A stretch of DNA of 64,000 bases, taken from NCBI RefSeq assembly GCF_006715395.1, contig NZ_VFNC01000002.1, forward strand, positions 3,162,001 to 3,226,000. Reading direction: 5' to 3'. Below the pieces are notes generated by a model. It searched no databases, was not told the DNA's origin, and saw only the letters and a list, made by a program, of their open reading frames with translations. Origin of the DNA: Streptomyces sp. SLBN-31 (GTDB lineage: Bacteria > Actinomycetota > Actinomycetes > Streptomycetales > Streptomycetaceae). A program made the translations under genes and the position numbers. How positions within the stretch are numbered: the first letter of the stretch is position 1; each line of letters begins with the position of its first letter. This document shows, piece after piece, positions 44,567 through 54,253 of the stretch.

Positions 44567-47449
<2,883 letters not shown>

Positions 47450-47503
47450 GATCCTTAAGCTCCATCGATCGTCTCTGCCAGCGGCTTCGTCGTTCCGGAA
47501 ACG

Positions 47504-47528
47504 AAAAATCCCCTCGCACAGGAGGGGA
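47504..47528 (-). terminator. Attenuator terminator in the leuS leader
   Basis: On the minus strand a 7-bp stem (47522-47528 with 47509-47515, CCCCTC/GAGGGG core) with a 6-nt loop is followed by a run of five T. It ends 54 bp before the leuS start. A U-tract is unusual for Streptomyces terminators, which supports a regulated attenuator. Confidence 0.85.
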
Positions 47529-47541
47529 CGCCGCGCCGATT

Positions 47542-47568
47542 CCGACCAGGCGGTTCGCCGGTGGTCGG
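47542..47568 (-). promoter_or_regulatory. Upstream hairpin of the leuS attenuator
   Basis: CCGACCA (47542-47548) and TGGTCGG (47562-47568) form a perfect 7-bp stem that begins 6 bp after the leader-peptide stop. It would be covered by a ribosome finishing the leader and could act as the pause or anti-terminator partner. Confidence 0.7.
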
Positions 47569-47574
47569 GACTGA

Positions 47575-47613
47575 TCAGCGCGGCTCGCTAAGCAGAAGGC
47601 GTACGGCACGCAT
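47575..47613 (-). CDS. leuS leader peptide (12 aa, LLL)
   Basis: ATG-CGT-GCC-GTA-CGC-CTT-CTG-CTT-AGC-GAG-CCG-CGC-TGA encodes [12 protein letters not shown], with three consecutive leucine codons. It precedes a hairpin and an intrinsic terminator upstream of leuS. This is the arrangement of ribosome-mediated attenuation: when charged tRNA-Leu is scarce, a ribosome stalled at the Leu codons should change RNA folding and permit read-through into leuS. A -10-like TACCCT ends 6 bp before the ATG, so the leader may be translated from a leaderless 5' end. Confidence 0.85.
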
Positions 47614-47619
47614 GGCGTT

Positions 47620-47625
47620 AGGGTA
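47620..47625 (-). promoter_or_regulatory. -10-like element for the leuS leader transcript
   Basis: TACCCT on the minus strand, 6 bp before the leader ATG. A start point at the usual distance would coincide with the ATG. No clear -35 is visible. Confidence 0.45.
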
Positions 47626-47796
47626 CCGCAGCGCTTGAGCAGGATGCGACGCGCTTGCGTATGCATCCTTGGCACCGGGCCACCCCTCCCGGCGACAACT
47701 GAATCAAGGACGCGGCTTACTTCGCGTAACACCCATTACCCGGACATCACAACAATCGCAACGTCTCCTGATAACAACGCAATAACTCAAACCTCG

Positions 47797-50929: not shown

Positions 50930-50933
50930 GCTG

Positions 50934-51006
50934 TGGAGCTAAGGAGAATTGAACTCCTGACCTCCTGCATGCCATGCAGGCGCTCTACCAACTGAGCTAT
51001 AGCCCC
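50934..51006 (-). tRNA. tRNA-Ala (GGC), copy 1
   Basis: The 73-nt minus-strand gene begins GGGGCTATAGCTCAGTTGG. The acceptor stem GGGGCTA/TAGCTCC, D-loop AGTTGG, anticodon stem CCTGC/GCAGG with loop ATGGCAT (anticodon GGC) and T-arm GTTCAATTC are all present, with discriminator A and no encoded CCA. It is identical to the copy at 54181-54253. A perfect hairpin follows directly. Confidence 0.97.
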
Positions 51007-54124: not shown

Positions 54125-54180
54125 CCTCGTCCACCGATCTTTGACAACTCCAGAGAGTGCCGATCAGCCTCACCTATGTG

Positions 54181-54253
54181 TGGAGCTAAGGAGAATTGAA
54201 CTCCTGACCTCCTGCATGCCATGCAGGCGCTCTACCAACTGAGCTATAGCCCC
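54181..54253 (-). tRNA. tRNA-Ala (GGC), copy 2
   Basis: The 73 nt are identical to the gene at 50934-51006, with anticodon GGC, discriminator A and no encoded CCA. Identity to the first copy stops within 2-3 bp outside the tRNA on both sides. It lies just after the phosphatase gene on the same strand. Confidence 0.97.

Follow-up and report, generated by a model that had tools for sequence, protein, structure and literature searches.

Among the systems closest to the one analysed here, leuL of Escherichia coli acts through competing hairpins, carries a ribosome-binding site for its leader and controls biosynthesis, and in these respects it differs from the leuS leader described below. The likeness lies in adjacent starvation-sensitive Leu codons in the leader, placed before robust structural genes (leuABCD; passages of PMC3783181). 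Furthermore, codon-dependent attenuation has been shown by experiment for ilvB1 of Mycobacterium tuberculosis, where, according to the passages of PMC13236596 on this leader, an upstream ORF with branched-chain codons is accompanied by a terminator, and the antiterminator is kept from forming when a ribosome covers the stop codon; that system differs in controlling biosynthesis and in being described with two mutually exclusive structures. Another similar arrangement is the LEU element before actinobacterial leuA, which also has a leaderless, Leu-rich leader (PMC1262725; LeuL1 in passages of PMC8079986) but lacks a typical terminator; it has been proposed to form a pseudoknot and to base-pair with the ribosome-binding site of leuA (PMC1262725).

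Attenuators before leuS itself are already in print. They were predicted in 2005 in Streptomyces avermitilis and Streptomyces coelicolor, likewise with a Leu-codon leader ORF and a terminator before leuS, and were classed as classical (PMC1262725), antiterminator and terminator hairpins being predicted for these two leaders in the part of that report that deals with them. In 2021, leuL2 was described before leuS in Streptomyces lividans TK24 as a leaderless transcript followed by a hairpin and a uridine stretch (passages of PMC8079986). The element studied here lies in a window of 64,000 nucleotides (the whole stretch of DNA analysed) from Streptomyces sp. SLBN-31, and its 12-residue leader peptide is identical to LeuL2 as given in PMC8079986, the only open-licence PMC paper in which the peptide string was found; a search of the same collection for leuS attenuators returned nothing beyond these two reports, the leuS matches shown for PMC3896937 being an author's name. 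The element is therefore known already, and it is quite likely the very attenuator published for Streptomyces. In contrast to the classical assignment of PMC1262725, a conserved helix was found here that does not compete with the terminator for bases. The passages on leuL2 in PMC8079986 describe neither this helix at the stop codon nor a class-wide spread. The present analysis, which is computational throughout, adds the spread across the class, the absence of base competition and a split in codon use between leader and gene.

All the features of the element are located on the minus strand, upstream of leuS (44567..47449), which encodes a leucyl-tRNA synthetase of 960 aa and was identified by the 80 best tblastn matches, covering the protein. 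The leader ORF (47575..47613), of 39 bases and 12 residues, was read as leaderless on the basis of the ORF itself and its identity to LeuL2. Its ATG at 47613 stands 6 nt downstream of a −10-like box, TACCCT (47620..47625), and the putative regulatory codons CTT CTG CTT (47590..47598) were assigned from the leader reading and their conservation. No two-box sigma-70 promoter was found by scanning the 601-base region, a clear −35 box being absent. The stop codon of the leader lies within the 5′ arm (GCCGCGCTGA, 47575..47584) of a 10-bp helix, hereafter P1, this arm covarying with the 3′ arm (TCGGCGCGGC, 47530..47539), whose position adjoining the terminator was established from the spacing across loci. 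P1 encloses a variable and dispensable inner stem-loop (47542..47568), formed by CCGACCA (47568-47562) and TGGTCGG (47548-47542). P1 ends one base before the stem of an intrinsic terminator, TCCCCTC-CTGTGC-GAGGGGA plus five T (47504..47528; arms 47528-47522 and 47515-47509, TTTTT at 47508-47504), which was detected by scanning and folding and has a covarying stem. The folding z-score of the element was −4.36, with one out of 200 shuffles being equally stable, and three terminator-like sites were counted in the 601-base region vs. 0.7 expected from shuffles. A search with the covariance model found a single copy of the element in its own genome. No Rfam family, T-box included, matched the window at the gathering cut-off except for two tRNAs, and none matched positions 47450-47700 at E up to 5. 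Both of the latter are tRNA-Ala genes that share the anticodon GGC and lie on the minus strand, some 3.2 kb apart (50933-51006 and 54180-54253).

On rereading the sequence, the positions given in the original prediction for the 12-codon leader with CTT-CTG-CTT and for the terminator with five T before leuS proved correct, and the TACCCT box was present 6 bases before the leader ATG. The 7-bp hairpin that it had placed between leader and terminator exists as the inner stem of P1, but it is not the main helix and is absent, for instance, from loci L048 and L049. The pairing scheme of the prediction, which does not mention the enclosing P1, was not supported.

A total of 81 leuS loci were first examined, namely the window and the best 80 of at least 585 stretches confirmed by tblastn, a set that favours Streptomyces, and the leader appeared in 70 of them. 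The remaining 11 loci belonged to four Bifidobacterium, to metagenome-assembled genomes (MAGs) of Aeriscardovia, Mycolicibacterium and Acidimicrobiaceae, and to four planctomycete MAGs; in all of these the leader was absent both by sequence pattern and by covariance model (E up to 1). The model, built from 16 sequences, matched 173 out of 394 genomes sampled evenly across the class (E up to 0.1), representing 72 of 137 genera, and 39 of the matching genomes were from the same genus as the window, its own genome not being counted. The other 221 showed no match under strict large-set filters, which miss weak matches. In the phylum set, 22 of 396 genomes matched (E up to 0.01), of which 17 fell in the class and four in one family outside it, the last being a doubtful partial match. 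Moreover, leuS was found downstream on the same strand in 110 of the 112 stretches fetched from outside the genus (27 families); one exception (L143) reaches the edge of its contig and the other (L234) precedes a citramalate-synthase-like gene. Four loci before cimA-like genes or leuA (L179, L181, L182 and L234) and two partial matches (L180 and G415) were left out of the counts. One genome (G209) carried two copies of the element (L120 and L121), each before a different leuS-like gene, the proteins having 42% and 76% identity to the LeuS of the window over the matched part.

To describe what is conserved, a parser was run on 181 loci (70 plus 111), yielding 175 structures, one of which was a misparse (L215) and was dropped; six loci were not parsed (L050, L147, L163, L166, L220 and L231). 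All 173 loci that have a leader start in frame carried a TAnnnT motif ahead of it, at 6 nt in 142 and at 7 nt in 31, compared with 2.3% in shuffled upstream sequence, a difference slightly flattered because every start in frame counts for the scan, whereas the control is confined to the closest one. This spacing is indirect evidence for the leaderless layout that had been predicted, and a leaderless transcript is reported for the identical S. lividans leader in passages of PMC8079986. Leu was encoded at the first, second and third positions of the run in 158, 171 and 173 of 173 loci, respectively, and the third codon, which begins 8 nt upstream of P1, was CTT in 165 and CTC in eight. In a single locus (L162, 701-792) the Leu run was replaced by QQQRL, P1 and the terminator being kept.

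The stop codon was found inside the P1 arm in 146 of the 175 structures, just 5′ of it in 15 and elsewhere in 14, the misparse included. The distance from P1 to the terminator was 0-2 nt in 166 out of 174 loci, although the parser imposed no limit on spacing (0 in 45, 1 in 88, 2 in 33, 3 in three, 4 in two, −1 in two and −64 in one), and the P1 loop varied from 8 to 78 nt. For 79 sequences, aligned by fitting them to the structure under test, 17 of the 23 base pairs changed on both sides; such both-side changes filled 164 cells vs. 34.6 in shuffles, and the signal was lost when partners were slid. The base of P1, GCCGC, was conserved in 166 of 174 loci, including all 15 with the stop just before P1, where it is noncoding except for its first base. 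Downstream of the T-run a further stretch, CATGTC or CATTTC and often then CGG, was conserved (about 47503-47494 in the window); its ATG was considered as a start of leuS and rejected, since it shares the reading frame of the gene in 13 of 59 loci. The original prediction had proposed to check the Leu codons and stems in relatives; there the Leu codons were kept and P1 and the terminator covaried, and neither of the outcomes it had named as counting against it (unconserved Leu codons or stems, and a transcript start 3′ of the terminator) was found.

CUU and CUC are read by one tRNA, with anticodon GAG. CTT made up 2.0% of the Leu codons (24 of 1184) in the 32 ORFs of the window, whereas at the last regulatory position of the leaders it is almost invariant. 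On the other hand, leuS of the window uses CTG for all of its 74 leucines, its Val, Pro, Ala, Gly, Arg, Thr and Ser codons being mixed. Across 36 leader-bearing leuS genes, hand-picked from 69 before any codon was counted, CTG accounted for 2632 of 2708 Leu codons (97%) vs. 788 of 1411 (56%) in 70 flanking ORFs, these being open frames of high GC3, some of them perhaps not genes. The weakest bias among the 36 was found in L035 (58 CTG, 18 CTC) and L049 (61 and 10). Within the genome of the window, the proportion of CTG over whole open frames was 72/104 in ileS, 43/72 in valS, 53/99 in rpoB, 18/42 in ilvB and 36/41 in leuA. Six leuS genes without the leader showed mixed Leu codons, in other lineages and base compositions. 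In other families, 110 incomplete leuS genes together had 1049 CTG out of 1297, with family values of 0.44-0.93. According to passages of PMC3783181, leucine starvation in E. coli slows CUU, CUC and CUA but not CUG. Leaders are where sensitive codons should occur under selective charging theory (passages of PMC1183508). The use of CUU and CUC in the leader vs. CUG in leuS fits sensing of the tRNA that reads CUU and CUC.

Taken from sequence, the element would with high probability be a leucine-sensing attenuator of leuS, and the signal sensed would most likely be the charging of tRNA-Leu, in particular of the isoacceptor reading CUU/CUC. The ribosome would begin on the 5′-terminal AUG of the leader. 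With ample Leu-tRNA it would reach the stop codon inside the 5′ arm of P1 and cover this arm, so that P1 would be blocked, the terminator would form and transcription would end. With scarce Leu-tRNA it would stall within the Leu run; P1 would then be unobstructed with the stall at the first codon and largely so at the second, and the polymerase would read on into leuS, P1 at the base of the terminator keeping the stem from completing in the RNA exit channel. If real, such a switch would keep leucyl-tRNA synthetase in step with the available leucine, in Streptomyces as well as in many further actinomycetes. That the locus had been read as a leucine attenuator of leuS appears correct for the most part, and is partly supported by the present results.

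The ribosome states were modelled by masked folding of 111 nonredundant elements, in which the bases covered by the ribosome were blocked. For a Leu codon in the A site, the ribosome footprint was taken to reach 12 nt beyond the base with which that codon begins; for the stop codon, the block extended one base beyond the P1 arm. P1 pairing was 0.97, 0.76 and 0.33 with the ribosome at the first, second and third Leu codon, respectively, and 0.00 at the stop, while terminator pairing stayed at 0.93-0.96 whatever the position. These values would fit the placement expected of a stalling ribosome for the first two codons and the stop but not for the third, where a stall would cover half of P1. Moreover, the ribosome can switch P1 and yet the terminator is predicted to form regardless, so that an effect of P1 is not explained by base pairing. 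Since P1 has no base in common with the terminator, it would act by abutment; the spacing of 0-2 nt, together with the conservation of G-C pairs where P1 is closed, suggests that P1 could hinder the terminator from its base. The chances that P1 is an antiterminating helix are about evenly balanced, and it is somewhat doubtful that abutment on the terminator is how it acts, this being the least supported step. Equally tentative is the broader proposal of an actinomycete attenuator design in which antitermination works by abutment, not strand competition, and the charging of the CUU/CUC-reading tRNA-Leu is sensed. Several findings speak against the attenuator model as a whole: the best-conserved codon is the third, at which P1 pairing is low; the leader of L162 lacks the Leu run; more than half of the sampled class genomes gave no match; and the purging of other Leu codons from leuS is weaker in other families. 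In addition, codon changes in the ilvB leader of S. coelicolor were reportedly without effect (PMC1262725).

That the best-conserved Leu codon is the third, situated 8 nt upstream of P1, would be accounted for if the sensor were the same but P1 played the opposite role, favouring termination by holding its own 3′ arm. A stall at that codon would cover the lower part of P1 and free the 3′ arm as an antiterminator, its GCGCGG pairing with the terminator loop CUGUGC and enclosing CCCCUC; in folding, such a hairpin emerged when P1 was blocked and the 3′ arm of the terminator was not yet made. Expected arm-loop pairs exceeded those of shuffled loops in 84 of 112 elements (3.94 vs. 3.08). However, shuffling the loops left the arm-loop energy no worse (native value lower in 56 of 112), loops taken from other families performed as well as an element's own (56 of 109), and the hairpin was nearly missing in families f3, f12 and f47, so the pairing was rejected as a family-wide feature. 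A ribosome at the stop codon would block P1 too, and the stop codon would then be badly placed. This opposite role for P1 is considered unlikely.

A classical attenuator, with a competing antiterminator that escaped detection here because it uses, for example, invariant bases or a pseudoknot, has in its favour the two hairpins stated for the Streptomyces leuS leaders in passages of PMC1262725, and invariant bases are indeed unable to covary. Two features of such attenuators are present, namely a leader ORF with cognate codons and an intrinsic terminator between leader and gene, while a mutually exclusive antiterminator was not found in the folding and covariation tests. The pairing of the P1 5′ arm with the terminator 3′ arm was slightly better than shuffled (mean −8.0 vs. 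−7.4 kcal/mol; lower in 74 of 112), but the terminators themselves averaged −13.5 kcal/mol and the pairing was stronger than its own terminator stem in one of 112 elements, for which it was discarded. Furthermore, no column pair outside P1 and its neighbouring positions indicated a competing helix in the covariation analysis, in which the terminator columns were out of register (the terminator is covered by the structure-fitted alignment), and the terminator remained paired in all ribosome states. A hidden competitor of this kind is thus judged improbable. Another candidate, in which the Leu codons pair with the 3′ arm of the terminator, was common, yet its energy was lower than shuffled in only 54 of 112 elements, the shuffles preserving base composition only, and it was not retained. 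A leader that does not sense leucine, its terminator being constitutive and its leaderless mini-ORF, though translated, setting basal leuS expression or answering general translation stress, has in its favour the locus that has lost the Leu run and kept the rest; it is nevertheless very unlikely, given a third-position Leu codon fixed in every one of the 173 leaders, before the cognate synthetase, and a codon purge in leuS that is specific to Leu. The approximately 175 parsed elements provide a frame for considering leaderless attenuation, control of termination without base competition, and the shaping of leader (CUU) and gene (CUG) by isoacceptors.

Comparable arrangements were observed before other genes. 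The leuA LEU elements of L181 and L182 matched the leuS model weakly through CTTAGC-GCCGCGG, and the leaders of these two genes may go back to a common ancestor. In the genome of the window, the ilvB leader, reading MRTRILVLGKRVG up to its stop, equals the IlvL peptide of S. lividans; its last Leu codon stands 8 nt before a P1-like stem. The cimA leader of the same genome (L235) has two Ile codons, the last of them 11 nt before a comparable stem. Both stems lie 1 nt before a terminator and were read by eye, the minimum-energy folds of longer stretches being different. A search of open-licence PMC papers for an Ile leader of the cimA type found no relevant title. The codon-to-helix distance of 8 nt was also seen before cimA at two loci from other genomes (L179 and L234), whose Ile-codon leaders, MFYGLLIIGRRAG (L179, about 1500-1620) and MPSQVLIIVRRAG (L234), each read to its stop, precede citramalate-synthase-like genes. 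In these two leaders and in L235, a stem was located at the stop codon with a terminator adjoining it.
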